This document shows positions 56,883 to 64,000 of a stretch of DNA of 64,000 nt, piece after piece. Within the stretch, counting starts at the first letter, position 1. Each line of letters opens with the position of its first letter. Origin of the DNA: Bacteroidota bacterium (GTDB lineage Bacteria; Bacteroidota; Bacteroidia; B-17B0; Aurantibacillaceae); the NCBI GenBank assembly GCA_016185125.1, contig JACPOC010000007.1, positions 1 through 64,000 on the forward strand, in the 5' to 3' direction. Made by a program: the position numbers and the translations under genes. The notes below the pieces were generated by a model. That model was not told where the DNA came from. It did not search any database and saw nothing but the letters and a program-made list of their open reading frames with translations.

Positions 56883-58220
56883 ATGTCCCGCCACAAAATC
56901 GGATTTAATACTGCGGTTTCTATTGTTATTGCCAATATGATAGGCACCGGCGTTTTTACAAGTCTTGGCTTTCAGGTTTTAGGAATAGAAAGTGGCTTTG
57001 CAATTTTGGCGCTTTGGATAGTGGGAGGGTTTATTGCATTATGCGGAGCACTTACCTACGGTGAAATAAGTTCCGCTTTTCCAGAGAGTGGTGGCGAGTA
57101 TAATTATCTTTCCAAATTGTACCATCCTGCTATTGGCTTTATAAGCGGCTGGGTAAGTGTAAGTGTTGGCTTCGCGGCACCAATAGCAGCCGCCTCTGTG
57201 GCATTGGGGCAATATGTTACAAAAATTTATCCGCAGGTAAATGCAACAATTTTATCATTAAGTGTTATTGCTGTTATAACAGCTGTACATTCTGTTAATT
57301 TAAAAGCCGGAAGTTTATTTCAAAGAATATTTACTGTTGTAAAAATAGTTTGTATTGTTATGTTTATTGGCTTTGGTTTGTTTCATGTGCCTTCTCACAC
57401 GGTAGATTACAGTGCAAGCCCATTTGCGTGGAAAGATATTTTTTCCTCCGCTTTTGCTGTTTCATTAATTTATGTTACTTACGCTTATAGCGGATGGAAC
57501 GCCGCCACATACATTTCGGGAGAAATTGAAAATTCTAAAAAGAACTTACCGCGCGCCCTTTTTGTTGGCACGCTTGTAGTGATGGTTATTTATACAGTTT
57601 TAAATTTCGTGTTTTTATATTCAGTACCTATTCTTGAATTAAAAGGCGTTCTCGAAGTGGGATATTTGAGCGCCAATAAAATTTTTGGTTTACAGGTGGG
57701 ACAATTTATGAGTTTGGTTATCGCGCTCTTATTGGTTTCAACCATTAGTGCCATGGTGCTTGCCGGACCGCGTGTAATGCAAAGTATGGGTAATGATATA
57801 AAAGGATTAAGATTCTTTGCTGCTTCCAATAAAAATAATGTTCCTTATGTTGCAATCATATTTCAATCATCCATAGCAGTTATCCTTGTACTCACCTCTT
57901 CCTTTCAATCGCTTATAACGTACGTGGGCTTTACCTTAAATTTATTTACATTTTTAACTGTTCTCGGGATTTTTATTTTACGTGTAAAATTTAAGCATGT
58001 GCAAACTACTTATAAAACATTTTTGTATCCGGTAACGCCAATTCTCTTTTTAATAATAGTGCTGTATATTCTTATTCATATTATGATTGAAAGGCCAACA
58101 GAATCGTTATTTGGTTTGGCTACCGTATTGATTGGATTGTTGATCTATTTTTTAACTAATACTAAAAAAGATAAAACCATATTATCCATATCTGAAAATG
58201 CACCTACTTCTCCGGATTAG
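56883..58220 (+). CDS. APC-superfamily amino acid permease
   Basis: A 445-residue transporter with about twelve membrane helices. The first helix has the GTGVF substrate-binding break (NMIGTGVFTSLG), and GGEYNYLSKLYHPAIGFISGW follows helix 2. Members are proton-coupled importers or exchangers of amino acids or amines; specificity is not readable. The start is the ATG at 56883; an earlier in-frame ATG at 56844 lies inside the peptidase gene and is unlikely. Its stop overlaps the next gene by 23 bases. Confidence 0.88.
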   Translation: MSRHKIGFNTAVSIVIANMIGTGVFTSLGFQVLGIESGFAILALWIVGGFIALCGALTYGEISSAFPESGGEYNYLSKLYHPAIGFISGWVSVSVGFAAPIAAASVALGQYVTKIYPQVNATILSLSVIAVITAVHSVNLKAGSLFQRIFTVVKIVCIVMFIGFGLFHVPSHTVDYSASPFAWKDIFSSAFAVSLIYVTYAYSGWNAATYISGEIENSKKNLPRALFVGTLVVMVIYTVLNFVFLYSVPILELKGVLEVGYLSANKIFGLQVGQFMSLVIALLLVSTISAMVLAGPRVMQSMGNDIKGLRFFAASNKNNVPYVAIIFQSSIAVILVLTSSFQSLITYVGFTLNLFTFLTVLGIFILRVKFKHVQTTYKTFLYPVTPILFLIIVLYILIHIMIERPTESLFGLATVLIGLLIYFLTNTKKDKTILSISENAPTSPD

Positions 58221-59427
58221 TGTAATGCTGTTTTTTGTACCTGTGAATTTAAAGGCGCAAACATCTCTATTCCTCGATAGTCTTTTGCGAACGAATATGT
58301 CAAATTTTGCACAGGTGTTTGCTAATCCTGATAAATTCAAAGTGCAGATTATTTACACTCAAATAAATCGTGATAAAAAAAATAAGCCTTTTTTTACCGA
58401 GTATACTTTAAATACATCTGATAAATATATTTATCCTGCAAGCACCGTTAAGCTTCCCGTTAGTTTAATTGCTTTAATGAAGCTTGAGGAGCTTAATATT
58501 AAACCTGCAACCATTATGATAACCGATAGTGCTTTTTATTGTCAGAAAAAAGTAACCAAGGATTCAACTGCAGAAAACGGTAAACCAAGCATTGAAAATT
58601 ATATAAAAAAAATGTTTTTGGTGAGTGATAATGTGGCCTGCGCCCGCGTATATGAATTTGTGGGGCATGATTACGCCCATCAAAAGCTAAAAGAAATGGG
58701 CTATAACAATATAAGATTATTTAATCGCTTAGATGGTCAATGTCCGGGAGACACCTCAAAAACAACTCCTCCTGTTTATTTTTTAAACGAGAATAATGAT
58801 ACTATTTATAAACAAGCTTTAACTCTGCCAAATGAAAAGTTTAAACATCCCATTAGTAATTCTAAAATAGGAAAAATTAAAATGGCTAATAACCAATTTG
58901 TTTCCAAGGATTTTTCGACTCATAATTATTTAACACCAACTGATCTACATTCCATAATGAAAAAGCTTGTTTTTAATGAATATTTGGGAAAGCATGAAAA
59001 AATTAAACTTAGTAATGCCGGCAGACTATTTATGTTAAGATACCTCGGGCTTTATCCTAAGGAAAGTATGTTTCCGAAATATGATAAAAAAATATATTAT
59101 GATTCTTATAAAAAATATTTTTTATATGGAAGCTCAGTAGCTACAATAAAACAGGATAGTATTCGTATTTTTAATATCGTGGGCAGGGCTTACGGCTTTT
59201 TGATTGACTGCGCTTACATTGTAGATTTTAAAAATAATATTGAATATTTATTGACCGCCTGCATTTATGTAAATGAAAAAAATACGTTCGGGAGCGGTAA
59301 ATATGAGTATGATAAGTTAGGCTTACCCTTTTTAAAAGAACTTAGTTGGAGTTTGTATAACTTTGAAAGGACAAGGCTCAAAGATTTTGCTCCTAATCTA
59401 AGTGAATTTAAAGAGTTACTCCGGTAA
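58198..59427 (+). CDS. class-A-beta-lactamase-like serine hydrolase
   Basis: A 409-residue exported protein with a signal peptide (1-20). It has the active-site S-x-x-K as Ser82 and Lys85 in ASTVKLP and an SDN motif at 143-145 (LVSDNVA). The KTG motif of true class A enzymes is replaced by GRAYG before the strand LIDCAYIVDF, and a long extra middle region makes it larger than the usual 290. It may act on murein or a peptide and need not give antibiotic resistance. It overlaps the permease gene by 23 bases and joins the M23 peptidase in one transcript. Confidence 0.75.
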   Translation: MHLLLRISVMLFFVPVNLKAQTSLFLDSLLRTNMSNFAQVFANPDKFKVQIIYTQINRDKKNKPFFTEYTLNTSDKYIYPASTVKLPVSLIALMKLEELNIKPATIMITDSAFYCQKKVTKDSTAENGKPSIENYIKKMFLVSDNVACARVYEFVGHDYAHQKLKEMGYNNIRLFNRLDGQCPGDTSKTTPPVYFLNENNDTIYKQALTLPNEKFKHPISNSKIGKIKMANNQFVSKDFSTHNYLTPTDLHSIMKKLVFNEYLGKHEKIKLSNAGRLFMLRYLGLYPKESMFPKYDKKIYYDSYKKYFLYGSSVATIKQDSIRIFNIVGRAYGFLIDCAYIVDFKNNIEYLLTACIYVNEKNTFGSGKYEYDKLGLPFLKELSWSLYNFERTRLKDFAPNLSEFKELLR

Positions 59428-59447: not shown

Positions 59448-60356
59448 TTAAAAATAAATCATTCCTAAGCTCCCGCAGATTCCCTTCACAAGCATTAGCC
59501 CGTCCACCACAATTAAATAATAGAGGAGCGAACGTTTTAAATGCAGTGAATAAGCCGTAAGTAAAACTAAAACAAAGGGTACTACATTTAACAAAATCTT
59601 TATTGGATGAAAGTTTTGATGGTGACCATACCATACAAAAGTACCAAGTCCTATAATGCAAAGCGGAAGAATGATAAATAAAATTGTGTTTCTTAAACCG
59701 AACTTTACGGCGAATGTATGGAGGTTTAATTCTGAATCCGAAACATAATCCTTAATGTCAAACATAATACACAATACAGAAACGAACATGAAATTTTTCA
59801 GAAATAATAATGAACTGAGGACGGTTATTTCAAACGAATTATTTTTTTCAAGCGAATAAAAAATTAACGGATAAATTGTTACTAAGCCCGCCCAGGCAAA
59901 TCCAATTATAAAAGGTTTCAGCCATCCAATATTTCTTAAGCTGTATCGTGTTCCGCTTACACCATAATATAACAGGCCTACTAAAGGAAATAAAATAATC
60001 AAAAAAAATTGCAAAGGTTTTATAGAAAATAATGAACTCCAATGATGTTGGATAAAAACTATTCCGTATACTATTGCCAAAAAAGACAAAAGTGCCTGAC
60101 TTGTAAGCACTACTATTTTATTCTTCTTGTACCACAGCGTTCTTTCATTGACACTATTAGCGGATGTTTCTGAAATATAGGCCCATGAGTAAAACACCAC
60201 GGTGATACAAAATACTGTAATAAAATAAAAAGGGTTGTGTAATGGTAGATGTTGTTGTAGCATTGCTTCTATACTTAGTGCAATAGCGCATACACCGTAA
60301 AAATAATTTCCGTAGAAAATAAATTTGGTTACAGGATTATTATAGAAAGCGGACAT
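59448..60356 (-). CDS. UbiA-family-like membrane protein
   Basis: A 302-residue integral membrane protein with about eight helices. The second aspartate motif of UbiA prenyltransferases is recognisable (FDIKDYVSDSE, near 200), but the first (NDxxDxxxD) is replaced by ISETSANSVNER. UbiA enzymes attach isoprenoid chains to quinone or other aromatic heads using Mg2+ bound by both motifs, so activity here may be altered or lost. It follows the FecA-like receptor gene after 47 bases and may share its transcript. Confidence 0.6.
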   Translation of the reverse strand: MSAFYNNPVTKFIFYGNYFYGVCAIALSIEAMLQQHLPLHNPFYFITVFCITVVFYSWAYISETSANSVNERTLWYKKNKIVVLTSQALLSFLAIVYGIVFIQHHWSSLFSIKPLQFFLIILFPLVGLLYYGVSGTRYSLRNIGWLKPFIIGFAWAGLVTIYPLIFYSLEKNNSFEITVLSSLLFLKNFMFVSVLCIMFDIKDYVSDSELNLHTFAVKFGLRNTILFIILPLCIIGLGTFVWYGHHQNFHPIKILLNVVPFVLVLLTAYSLHLKRSLLYYLIVVDGLMLVKGICGSLGMIYF

Positions 60357-60403: not shown

Positions 60404-62641
60404 TTAGAACTTAAATTGTACTGTTAAGTATATGTTTACAGGATCAGCAGGTAAAATTCCGGGTCCCGGAAAACCTTCTGTTCTTCTTGTGAAATAAACA
60501 GAGTTGGTGGCATTGTTAAGGCCGGTAAAAATACCAATGAACTTGTAGGTATAGCCTGCAGAAAAATCGACTACACTGTATGCCGGAATAATTCCATATA
60601 TGGCTGAAGTTGAAGAGACGGCATTTGTAGCATCTGAAAACTGTTCTGACGTGTAAGCATATTGAGCTGTGATGCTGAATTTTTTGTAAGCGTATGTTAT
60701 TCCTGTCCTAACGATCATATCAGGGACGTACTCAACTTTTTTTCCGGTATAAGCCGTTTGTTGTCCTCCAGTATAAATTGCATTGAGGTAAGCGAAATTA
60801 ATAAAAGTTGATAATTTGTGTTTTGAATTTTTATTAAAGAGCTTTACCCAATCTAGTTCAACAAATGCCTCTATGCCTAAATTTCTGCTATCACTTACAT
60901 TGGTGCGGTAACGGATAATGTTATAGGAAATGGTATCTCTTGTCAGGATCATTCCAATTCTATCGTTATATTTTAATAAAAAACCACTTACATCAAAATA
61001 TAAAAGGTCTTTAAAAATTCCTCTAAATCCACCATCTGCAGTAAATCCTGTTTCATCCTTCAGGTTGGGATCTACGGCGTAATTTGGGTTGTTAACGCGC
61101 ATATCATTAAAATTAATTGAGCGGTAATTCTGACTGAAGTTGGCGTACCCTTCCAGCCAGTTGGTAATTTTTAATTGCGTTCCTATTCCAGCCAACACAA
61201 AACTTCTTGTGTTAGAACGATTGTCTTGAACGCGCGTGTCCAATAAAATATTTCCTGCAAGATCGCGATTAATAAGCCGATAATAGCCTTCAGACGATGT
61301 GGTAATGTTCTCAAAACGTATTCCCGGGGTAAGGTTCCAATTCTTTGTAAGCTGAAAAATATTTTCGGCAAACACCGCCACGTTAGATGACGGAAAAATG
61401 TAAGAAGAATTTTCAGGGTTATTCTCATTTAAAAAATTAAAGTTTGAGCCATCAGATTTATCAGCATCTCCTTGTTTGCGTTTAGTATTCCCTTTATAAA
61501 CGCGCGCGCCCATTAAAAAATTACTTTGCTGCTTTAAAAAAGTGTACCTACGGAGTAAACGTATCTCCGAACCAAAGTTATTATAAGTGTCCCTTAAAAT
61601 GTTTCTATATTTTGATGTATCGTCTGTTCTATCGGGGCGGCCTAAATAGCCTAGTGCGTCGCGCCCCGCGGAGAGCCCAAATCCTAAAATGGTTAAGCGA
61701 GTTTTTTCATTTATTTTATAATCAACTGAAACTGAATATAGATTCCAGTTTACTTTAAACCAATTGCGGCTACGTGTACTCTTAACAGGATCAGAATTAA
61801 ATTGCGCATCGGTAAGTCCGCCGGGTTGCTGCGAAACATAATTTAAAAAAGTATACTCCCCTTTAATAAAGAGTTTTTCATTTACCTGGTATTTTATACT
61901 GGCAAAGGCATTGTGCGAATTTATAGCGGAATTCGGACGCCAGCCATCATAATTTTTGTATTGGTAAAAAGTATTGTAGGAAATTTTTTTAACTGTTCCT
62001 GAGAGTTGATTAAAGGAATTATAAAATCCGTATGAGCCGCCGGTTTGCCTGAAGTTGCCGGAAAATTTTTTCGATTTTGGTGCGTCGTTAAATTTGTAAT
62101 TGATCATGCCGCCAAATTGTGTTCCATATTGCAGGCTCGCTGCCCCGCGTAATATTTCAATGCGTTCAATGGCTTCCGTTGGGGGAGTATAATAACTTTC
62201 AGGATAACCAAGTGCGTCGGCTGAAATATCGTAACCGTTTTGCCGCATATTAAAATTTGAAACCCGGTTAGGATTTAATCCTCTGCCGCCAATACCTATC
62301 TGAGTTCCTGAGCCATCGTTTTCGAAAATATTTATCCCTGCCACTTTAGAAAAAACCTGCCTGCTGTTATTAGCTGCAAGATTAGCGTTAAGGTCACCTA
62401 CATAAATAGCTTCGGTTTTTTTACCTGCGTAAATAGCAGTGCCCTCCACGTTATTTAGCCTTGCGATACCAAATGAATTATCTTTTTTAACTGTTACTTC
62501 CACTTCATTCAGATCAATGTCTTTTTTTTTCTTTTTATTTATAGAATCAATGGTAAGTGAATCCGTTTGTGATTGACACAAAAACGAAAAGAGAAAGAAA
62601 ATATTAAACAGTATTACTTTCATTAGTAACTTTTGACCCAA
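60404..62641 (-). CDS. FecA-like TonB-dependent outer-membrane receptor
   Basis: A 745-residue receptor with a signal peptide (about 1-24), a plug with TEAIYVGDLNANLA and IGIGGRGLNPNRVSNFNMRQ and GAASLQYGTQFGG, and a 22-strand barrel ending TRRTEGFPGPGILPADP and LTVQFKF, the C-terminal pattern of the FecA (ferric citrate) group. The likely ligand is a ferric chelate. It overlaps the HTTM gene by 19 bases, so the two are coupled. Confidence 0.87.
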   Translation of the reverse strand: MGQKLLMKVILFNIFFLFSFLCQSQTDSLTIDSINKKKKKDIDLNEVEVTVKKDNSFGIARLNNVEGTAIYAGKKTEAIYVGDLNANLAANNSRQVFSKVAGINIFENDGSGTQIGIGGRGLNPNRVSNFNMRQNGYDISADALGYPESYYTPPTEAIERIEILRGAASLQYGTQFGGMINYKFNDAPKSKKFSGNFRQTGGSYGFYNSFNQLSGTVKKISYNTFYQYKNYDGWRPNSAINSHNAFASIKYQVNEKLFIKGEYTFLNYVSQQPGGLTDAQFNSDPVKSTRSRNWFKVNWNLYSVSVDYKINEKTRLTILGFGLSAGRDALGYLGRPDRTDDTSKYRNILRDTYNNFGSEIRLLRRYTFLKQQSNFLMGARVYKGNTKRKQGDADKSDGSNFNFLNENNPENSSYIFPSSNVAVFAENIFQLTKNWNLTPGIRFENITTSSEGYYRLINRDLAGNILLDTRVQDNRSNTRSFVLAGIGTQLKITNWLEGYANFSQNYRSINFNDMRVNNPNYAVDPNLKDETGFTADGGFRGIFKDLLYFDVSGFLLKYNDRIGMILTRDTISYNIIRYRTNVSDSRNLGIEAFVELDWVKLFNKNSKHKLSTFINFAYLNAIYTGGQQTAYTGKKVEYVPDMIVRTGITYAYKKFSITAQYAYTSEQFSDATNAVSSTSAIYGIIPAYSVVDFSAGYTYKFIGIFTGLNNATNSVYFTRRTEGFPGPGILPADPVNIYLTVQFKF

Positions 62642-63969
62642 GTTTTACTTTTAAAGATTGAATTGCTTTGTTTACTTAAGTCAACCGTATCATCAATAAA
62701 TTGCCGCGAGCCTGACCCATTAATCGTAACATAACTCTGCGCTCTTACAATCGGATCGGTAAATCCTTTATGTTCATATTCTTTTTTGAGAAATTTGGCG
62801 TAATCAATCATCATGTCAGGTTGTGTGGCCATCATTTTTTCCTGCATATAGGTTAGGTAATGTTTATTATCTATTTCAATTTCTCTTTCTGATGTTTTAT
62901 CTTTTACAAAAAAGAAAGCTGTTCCCGCTTTTTCCATTAACATCACGCGCCATGAAAAGCGGTACCCTTGTTCTGTCCAGAAAAGTTTGCCCGGATATAA
63001 AAGATACCTGAAAGGGAGCAGAAATTGAATTGCAAAGAAAATGACACAGGCAATTATTACAGGTTTGCCACAATTAAAAAGGGTTGTGGATTTGTTTTCT
63101 ATTCGTGAATGCTTACACAAACGTTTGAGAATATTTAAAATTTTAATATGAAAATCTTCCCTGAAAAAAATGATGGTGATGGTGATCATAATATATGGAA
63201 ACATTCCAATGTTAAAGAAAAGGGAAGTGGCCAGGTGAAAGATCACTACAAAAAAATAAGCAATATTTACTGTTCGCTTATTAAATAAAAAGAAGCCTAT
63301 CAGCAGATCGTAAATACAGCCTATCCAGCAGAACAAAAAAGCAAGCCATTCTTTTTCCATTAAACCGCCAATAACAGGTAAATGAGAAAATGCGGGAAGC
63401 CAGATCTTAAGCGGTTGGGCTTCAAAGAGCCAGTCGTAATTGAGTTTAGCCACGCCCGCGAAAAAATACACGATGAACATTTGAAGTTGCAATACGAAAA
63501 TGAACAGGCGCGGAACAAGCGTAACCTCTGTGTTTTTCAACAGCTTATTATCAATTGAAAAATTTGTGTTAGCGGGTAAATAAATAAGTATGAATGAAAT
63601 AATACTTACAAAATAGTAATGGTTAAGGTAATTGGTTTTGTCTATTAATTCTACATAAGTAAAAAGAACAAAAAATAAAATTGCGCTGATTCTGTAAAAT
63701 GAACCAAGGATGATTCCAATGCTGGCAATTAAAAGTAAAGCGAAGACGATGTACATTCCAACTCCGCCAAAAGGTTTAACCCATTCAAATCCATAATAAG
63801 GAAAAAACATTTTTGGCAAAATATACATGTTGTAAACCCAACCTTTTAGAATAAAACGACTAATAGATAAAAACATTAAAGCTCCAAAAGCTATTCTAAA
63901 AATAACTAGTGGAGCTATGTTAACAGGCTGCCTCAAATATGTGTGAAGGCTTTTAATCGCCATCGCCAT
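62623..63969 (-). CDS. HTTM protein related to vitamin-K-dependent gamma-carboxylase
   Basis: A 448-residue membrane protein with about eight helices. Blocks match vitamin-K-dependent gamma-carboxylases by eye: LIDKTNYLNHYY (108-119), QMFIVYFFAGVAKLNYDWL (163-181) and YPGKLFWTEQGYRFSWRVML near the start of the lumen/periplasmic C-terminal part. In the second block Lys175 lines up with human GGCX Lys218, the base that deprotonates vitamin K hydroquinone. Such enzymes turn protein glutamate into gamma-carboxyglutamate. Two start codons (63969, 63963) are possible. The gene may begin further upstream operon-wise; the neighbour beyond the window edge is unknown. Confidence 0.82.
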   Translation of the reverse strand: MAMAIKSLHTYLRQPVNIAPLVIFRIAFGALMFLSISRFILKGWVYNMYILPKMFFPYYGFEWVKPFGGVGMYIVFALLLIASIGIILGSFYRISAILFFVLFTYVELIDKTNYLNHYYFVSIISFILIYLPANTNFSIDNKLLKNTEVTLVPRLFIFVLQLQMFIVYFFAGVAKLNYDWLFEAQPLKIWLPAFSHLPVIGGLMEKEWLAFLFCWIGCIYDLLIGFFLFNKRTVNIAYFFVVIFHLATSLFFNIGMFPYIMITITIIFFREDFHIKILNILKRLCKHSRIENKSTTLFNCGKPVIIACVIFFAIQFLLPFRYLLYPGKLFWTEQGYRFSWRVMLMEKAGTAFFFVKDKTSEREIEIDNKHYLTYMQEKMMATQPDMMIDYAKFLKKEYEHKGFTDPIVRAQSYVTINGSGSRQFIDDTVDLSKQSNSIFKSKTWVKSY

Positions 63970-64000
63970 CCTGGTAGGTAATAATTACCCCCAGGCGTGA

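Follow-up and report, generated by a model that had tools for sequence, protein, structure and literature searches.

Carboxylation is the known chemistry of the vitamin K-dependent gamma-carboxylase (VKGC) family, and we know of no established role for its prokaryotic members with intact catalytic residues. The glutamyl carboxylase homolog of Leptospira reportedly lacks an equivalent of Lys218 of the carboxylase GGCX and is said to have altered activity. It is mentioned as a bacterial VKGC homolog in the available part of PMC4555120. In the available part of PMC9146348, Lys218 is described as the base that initiates the reaction, and Lys218 and His160 are both described as essential. In this study, a VKGC gene was analyzed in a stretch of 64,000 nucleotides, hereafter the window, from a Bacteroidota bacterium (assembly GCA_016185125.1, contig JACPOC010000007.1). 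Within its 114-kb contig, the window covers the first 64 kb, and the genome is 3.34 Mb in size and 99.9% complete. The VKGC probably belongs to a four-gene, iron-regulated acquisition operon, in which it would modify one component for iron capture, with a FA-hydroxylase-type enzyme as its equivalent in some lineages. This reading was drawn from sequence: family membership, catalytic residues, the operon, Fur-box-like sites in most loci and a near mutual exclusion with the FA-hydroxylase.

The window protein was firmly assigned to the VKGC family as a true bacterial member whose catalytic core appears intact. The Pfam models for HTTM (residues 14-272, 258 bits) and for the 'VKGC lumenal domain' (PF22777, residues 304-446, 175 bits) both matched above their cut-offs of 27.7 bits. 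With an E limit of 10, a phmmer search of PDB sequences yielded 8 distinct matches, every one named 'Vitamin K-dependent gamma-carboxylase', which we take to be human GGCX; the output gives no species. The best match (E ~5e-41) aligned residues 7-446 with residues 50-503 of a 758-residue chain. In this alignment Lys175 fell on the second Lys of GVKKLDADW and His117 on the histidine in KTSWNNH, which by counting are Lys218 and His160, respectively; a script check of the window protein returned H at residue 117 and K at residue 175. By the same counting, His245, Trp331 and Tyr336 corresponded to GGCX positions 287, 390 and 395, respectively, and Lys347 to Arg406. Thus, similar to GGCX, the window protein keeps the equivalents of Lys218 and His160 within a region of homology that covers residues 7-446. 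The original prediction of a VKGC-type protein with Lys175 at the place of the catalytic lysine was therefore upheld, and the residue was invariant in 81/81 operon homologs. Different from what is reported of the Leptospira homolog, the Lys218 equivalent is retained.

The gene arrangement firmly predicts a conserved, tightly packed operon of four genes, in the window's genome all on the minus strand, in the order DUF4856 lipoprotein, imelysin lipoprotein, VKGC and TonB receptor. Genome contigs were scanned with the VKGC alignment alone and at least 556 relatives were confirmed; operon counts out of 81 refer to the best 80 of these loci plus the window's own locus and are not a census. The TonB receptor was downstream of VKGC in 80 of the 81 loci, the exception (L097) ending at a contig edge. 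Imelysin was present in 77; of the four loci without it, L066 and L080 begin at a contig edge. DUF4856 was present in 73, of which 70 scored above 150 bits. The median gap was 3 bases between imelysin and VKGC and -1 between VKGC and the receptor. The hosts were Bacteroidota, plus some Balneolota and Rhodothermota. In the window's own genome the gene of the operon imelysin (PF09375, 117 bits) shares as many as 17 bases with the start of the VKGC gene. Imelysin and DUF4856 genes had been expected just beyond position 64,000, and both were found there; the tendency of imelysin to occur near HTTM genes was likewise seen, in the 80 retrieved loci as well as in the class sample below. The overlap of 19 bases first given for the VKGC and receptor genes requires the TTG start. 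With the ATG start, which in our judgement fits the signal peptide better, the junction is TAATG, in which the receptor start and the VKGC stop codon have one base in common; with either start the two genes are close enough for coupled translation. The receptor had also been described as FecA-like and of iron type. It is a TonB receptor linked to VKGC, but its scores against the curated models for siderophore receptors (92 bits, cut-off 223.5) and FecA (89 bits, cut-off 1100) were far under the cut-offs, so that the iron-type label rests mainly on operon context.

Co-occurrence was assessed in 395 class genomes with self-chosen cut-offs (imelysin above 250 bits, VKGC above 500 bits). With two truncated VKGC matches added by hand, a genome with a partial imelysin match (G079) counted among the imelysin-less ones and another (G089) classed as VKGC-less although a contig end cuts its operon, operon-type imelysin was found in 103 genomes and operon-type VKGC in 83; 81 had both, 22 only imelysin, 2 only VKGC and 290 neither (Fisher p ~8e-61, uncorrected for relatedness).

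Iron regulation of this gene set is indicated by data on Riemerella anatipestifer. Table 4 in the available part of PMC5609570 lists the consecutive tags RAYM_09779-09794 as a TonB receptor, a 'Vitamin K-dependent gamma-carboxylase', an imelysin and a hypothetical protein, all four as putatively Fur-regulated, with wild-type -Fe/+Fe ratios of 2.11-3.07. Similar to the window operon, the receptor, VKGC, imelysin and the next gene are side by side; the hypothetical protein would correspond to DUF4856, and in that source the operon genes appear as a table listing. Among the papers listed by a literature search that most subscription journals lay outside, the operon surfaced in print only in this table, and no paper on HTTM together with imelysin was found. 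The Fur-box consensus was taken from the available part of PMC5609570, and sites with no more than 4 of 19 mismatches were called Fur-box-like. Such sites were present upstream of DUF4856 in 46/70 VKGC loci and in 12/18 VKGC-less operons, compared with 23/590 other open reading frames (ORFs), 3/700 shuffles and 0/81 positions directly upstream of VKGC.

The most surprising result was the apparent exchange of VKGC with a FA-hydroxylase-type oxygenase. Six genomes of the class survey had DUF4856, imelysin and receptor genes without VKGC, and in five of them a protein of ~310 amino acid residues was encoded next to these genes. All three of these proteins that were scanned matched PF04116 (FA_hydroxylase), and several His clusters were common to all five. 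A model built from the five operon-adjacent genes, with E of 1e-40 or better as the subfamily cut-off, identified the subfamily in 18/395 genomes: 16 of the 22 with imelysin and no VKGC, 2 of the 81 with both, and 0/292 imelysin-less genomes (Fisher p 4e-12, uncorrected for relatedness). Within the 81 VKGC loci, the model matched no more than two relatives, both weakly (82 and 70 bits). As the model was made from operon-adjacent genes, part of its operon link was built in. This is not the whole of it, given the score gap (at least 236 bits for the subfamily and at most 93 for other matches in 149 genomes) and the eight matches located on contigs other than that of the operon imelysin. These eight genes also speak for the view, which we consider unlikely, that the pattern is a lineage effect, VKGC having been lost where a hydroxylase happened to be present for another reason; five of them were examined, and neither an operon gene within ~5 kb nor a Fur-like site was found. 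Different from this expectation, the other 10 of the 18 hydroxylase genes adjoin the operon, and the hydroxylase occurs in none of the 292 imelysin-less genomes. Moreover, on a tree of 96 imelysins (L083, whose imelysin ORF is split, was left out) the VKGC and hydroxylase states require at least five changes, and five family codes contain both states. The distribution suggests that VKGC and an unrelated FA-hydroxylase-type enzyme both do one job for iron capture.

In the reading that we favor, VKGC would work on the periplasmic side of the inner membrane with menaquinol and O2 and would modify one of the system's components, most likely a lipoprotein bound for the outer membrane. The modified component would then bind iron or pass it to the receptor, and in several lineages the FA-hydroxylase-type membrane oxygenase may do the equivalent job. 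The family of futalosine-route enzymes (PF02621) had two matches in the window's genome, so that menaquinone is likely available; the cofactor first proposed, menaquinone of the same cell, is thus probably made by this route. No match to MenA was found in this genome.

Several observations weigh against such a modification-dependent, iron-regulated operon. The match to GGCX stops at residue 503 of 758, beyond which, different from GGCX, the window protein aligns with nothing; the missing C-terminal part is relevant for propeptide binding, and we know of no propeptide partner of the window VKGC. Also different from GGCX, the window protein belongs to an iron operon in a genome without a match to VKOR (PF07884), which was present in 8/149 class genomes; no classical vitamin K cycle was thus found, and recycling of the epoxide would need another enzyme. 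Six imelysin-positive genomes had neither VKGC nor the FA-hydroxylase; among them are G089, with its cut operon, and G239 and G266, which are 76% and 74% complete, respectively. With regard to regulation, Fur dependence of the Riemerella genes is weak and speaks against simple Fur control: the available part of PMC5609570 gives delta-fur/wild-type ratios in the presence of iron of only 1.36-1.93, an iron response that remains in delta-fur (2.70-3.07), and gel shifts that concerned other promoters. The Fur-box-like site of the window's own operon has 5 mismatches, a score that 40/590 other ORFs equaled or bettered, and with this weaker site Fur control of the own copy is plausible at most. None of the 15 hydroxylase genes examined had a Fur-like site within the limit of 4 mismatches. 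Finally, according to the available part of PMC3143127, two imelysins were tested and neither specifically bound heme or ferric ion.

The search for a modification site added to these points. Glu columns kept with VKGC and lost without it were sought by comparing VKGC with VKGC-less loci for imelysins (77 vs. 20), DUF4856 proteins (70 vs. 17) and receptors (77 vs. 14), and none was found, as in an earlier comparison with 6 VKGC-less loci. The best column was imelysin E333, with 72% Glu in the presence and 30% in the absence of VKGC. In tethers with a recognized lipobox, Glu averaged 1.79 with VKGC (n = 56) and 2.00 without (n = 13) in imelysins, and 2.18 (n = 62) and 2.00 (n = 15) in DUF4856 proteins, with no clear difference in either. 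As no Glu clearly tracks the presence of VKGC, gamma-carboxylation of the partners gains no support from their sequences. This bears on a strict gamma-carboxylase, which would convert Glu of the imelysin or DUF4856 lipoprotein to gamma-carboxyglutamate with menaquinol as cofactor, the product binding iron or calcium. Such an enzyme is possible but doubtful: the Lys218 and His160 equivalents are intact in 81/81 homologs, the immediate gene neighbors encode exported lipoproteins and a relative, Riemerella, shows iron regulation (available part of PMC5609570), whereas the three partners have no conserved VKGC-specific Glu, the lipoprotein tethers are about equally rich in Glu with and without VKGC, and VKGC is absent from 22/103 genomes with the operon imelysin. 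A gamma-carboxylated, metal-binding neighbor protein, named at the outset as the natural substrate, thus lost ground, also because 16 genomes keep imelysin with the FA-hydroxylase in place of VKGC; judged by sequence, it may be retained as a tentative idea.

Comparison of VKGC with hydroxylase operons revealed no separating column in imelysin. Partial separators were found in the receptor (N125 and T152, in 3/4 clusters) and in DUF4856 (Y366, in 3/5). The absence of a partner position that sets every hydroxylase cluster apart would fit enzymes that modify a small or lipid molecule, such as a quinone, a siderophore-like ligand or a lipoprotein acyl chain, used by imelysin or the receptor, rather than a protein side chain. 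The match to PF04116 points the same way, relatives in FA_hydroxylase acting mostly on lipids. Nevertheless, the three partial separators do differ in some clusters and the known VKGC chemistry is on peptides, and we regard this explanation as rather unlikely.

The imelysins themselves differ from described members of their superfamily. No operon imelysin (0/97) contains GxHxxE, which the unlinked imelysin paralog of the same genome (contig C50) carries; the available part of PMC3143127 describes one family that lacks the motif His (GxxxxE). Similar to the EfeUOB and PA4370-4373 types of operon in that source, an imelysin lipoprotein is found here in an iron-related setting; different from them, the four operon genes of the window's genome include no DUF1111 peroxidase or EfeU by Pfam. 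In addition, 95/97 operon imelysins end in DGD or DSD (76/77 from VKGC and 19/20 from VKGC-less operons), and the full DxDGD C-terminus was present in 88/97 (70 and 18, respectively). In the 395-genome imelysin search, the last position of the model was reached by 108/110 matches above 250 bits, 5/6 at 155-250 bits and 1/23 with lower scores. As a target shared by both enzymes, this acidic tail would be the most economical candidate. VKGC enzymes are known for acting on Glu, not Asp, which speaks against it. It is a highly speculative thought that VKGC and the FA-hydroxylase-type enzyme, with its di-iron motif, interchangeably modify the DxDGD-COOH end, VKGC by beta-carboxylating Asp and the hydroxylase by forming beta-hydroxy-Asp, so that a chelating tail carries iron to the receptor. 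If true, this would add an aspartyl role to the VKGC family and a new kind of metal site that is built post-translationally.

Table 1. Positions of the operon genes, key codons and other features; window positions unless a contig or locus is given.
Feature	Position	Strand	Remark
VKGC/HTTM protein, 448 amino acid residues, start Met1 or Met3	62623..63969	-	Pfam matches to HTTM and the VKGC lumenal domain; homologous to GGCX
Codon of Lys175, aligned with GGCX Lys218	63445..63447	-	invariant in 81/81 operon and 9/9 second-clade homologs
Codon of His117, aligned with GGCX His160	63619..63621	-	invariant in 81/81 operon homologs, 6/9 second-clade homologs
Imelysin lipoprotein gene	contig C52 63953-65038 (window part 63953..64000)	-	window part holds last codons including DGDGD tail
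Imelysin acidic C-terminus	63953-63970; L002:8953-8970		
DUF4856 lipoprotein gene	contig 65040-66167	-	upstream of imelysin, beyond the window
TonB-dependent receptor	60404..62641	-	TTG start 62641 as listed; ATG at 62623 more likely
Own Fur-box-like site	contig 66206-66224		
FA-hydroxylase-type genes adjoining VKGC-less operons	L116:3609-4535; L117:7793-8716; L118:5873-6808; L119:4038-4967; L120:9811-10764	-; +; -; +; +	
UbiA-like prenyltransferase gene	59448-60356	-	
Beta-lactamase-like gene	58198-59427	+	PF13354
Gene between DUF4856 and imelysin	L119:6373-6876	+	168 amino acid residues
VKGC nearer the operon type	L125:5965-7311	+	566 bits

The survey also identified a second, divergent VKGC group, examined in nine loci (L124 and L126-L133), in which the catalytic Lys was always kept and the His in six. 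VKGC had no imelysin beside it in any of the nine, and a TPR protein was found as a neighbor in L128 and L129. The VKGC of L125, nearer the operon type, was in a genome without operon imelysin. In the window, the UbiA-like prenyltransferase gene lies behind the receptor on the same strand and is not MenA by TIGR00751; it was rejected as an operon member, its model having matched only the own locus among the 81. Near the operon is a gene with a beta-lactamase-like match and a weak transpeptidase match. In the VKGC-less operon of L119, the gene between DUF4856 and imelysin encodes a protein that is probably exported and has no Pfam match.

The operon places VKGC in a concrete setting of iron limitation, next to a TonB receptor and to lipoproteins that are exported. 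Operons without VKGC are natural controls, and there appears to be a stand-in enzyme. With this setting, these controls and the stand-in, the substrate and chemistry of VKGC become testable in harmless Bacteroidota, the exchange with the FA-hydroxylase-type oxygenase being what opens the question to test. If the stand-in role is true, two unrelated membrane enzymes would solve one problem, which would constrain the nature of the modification.

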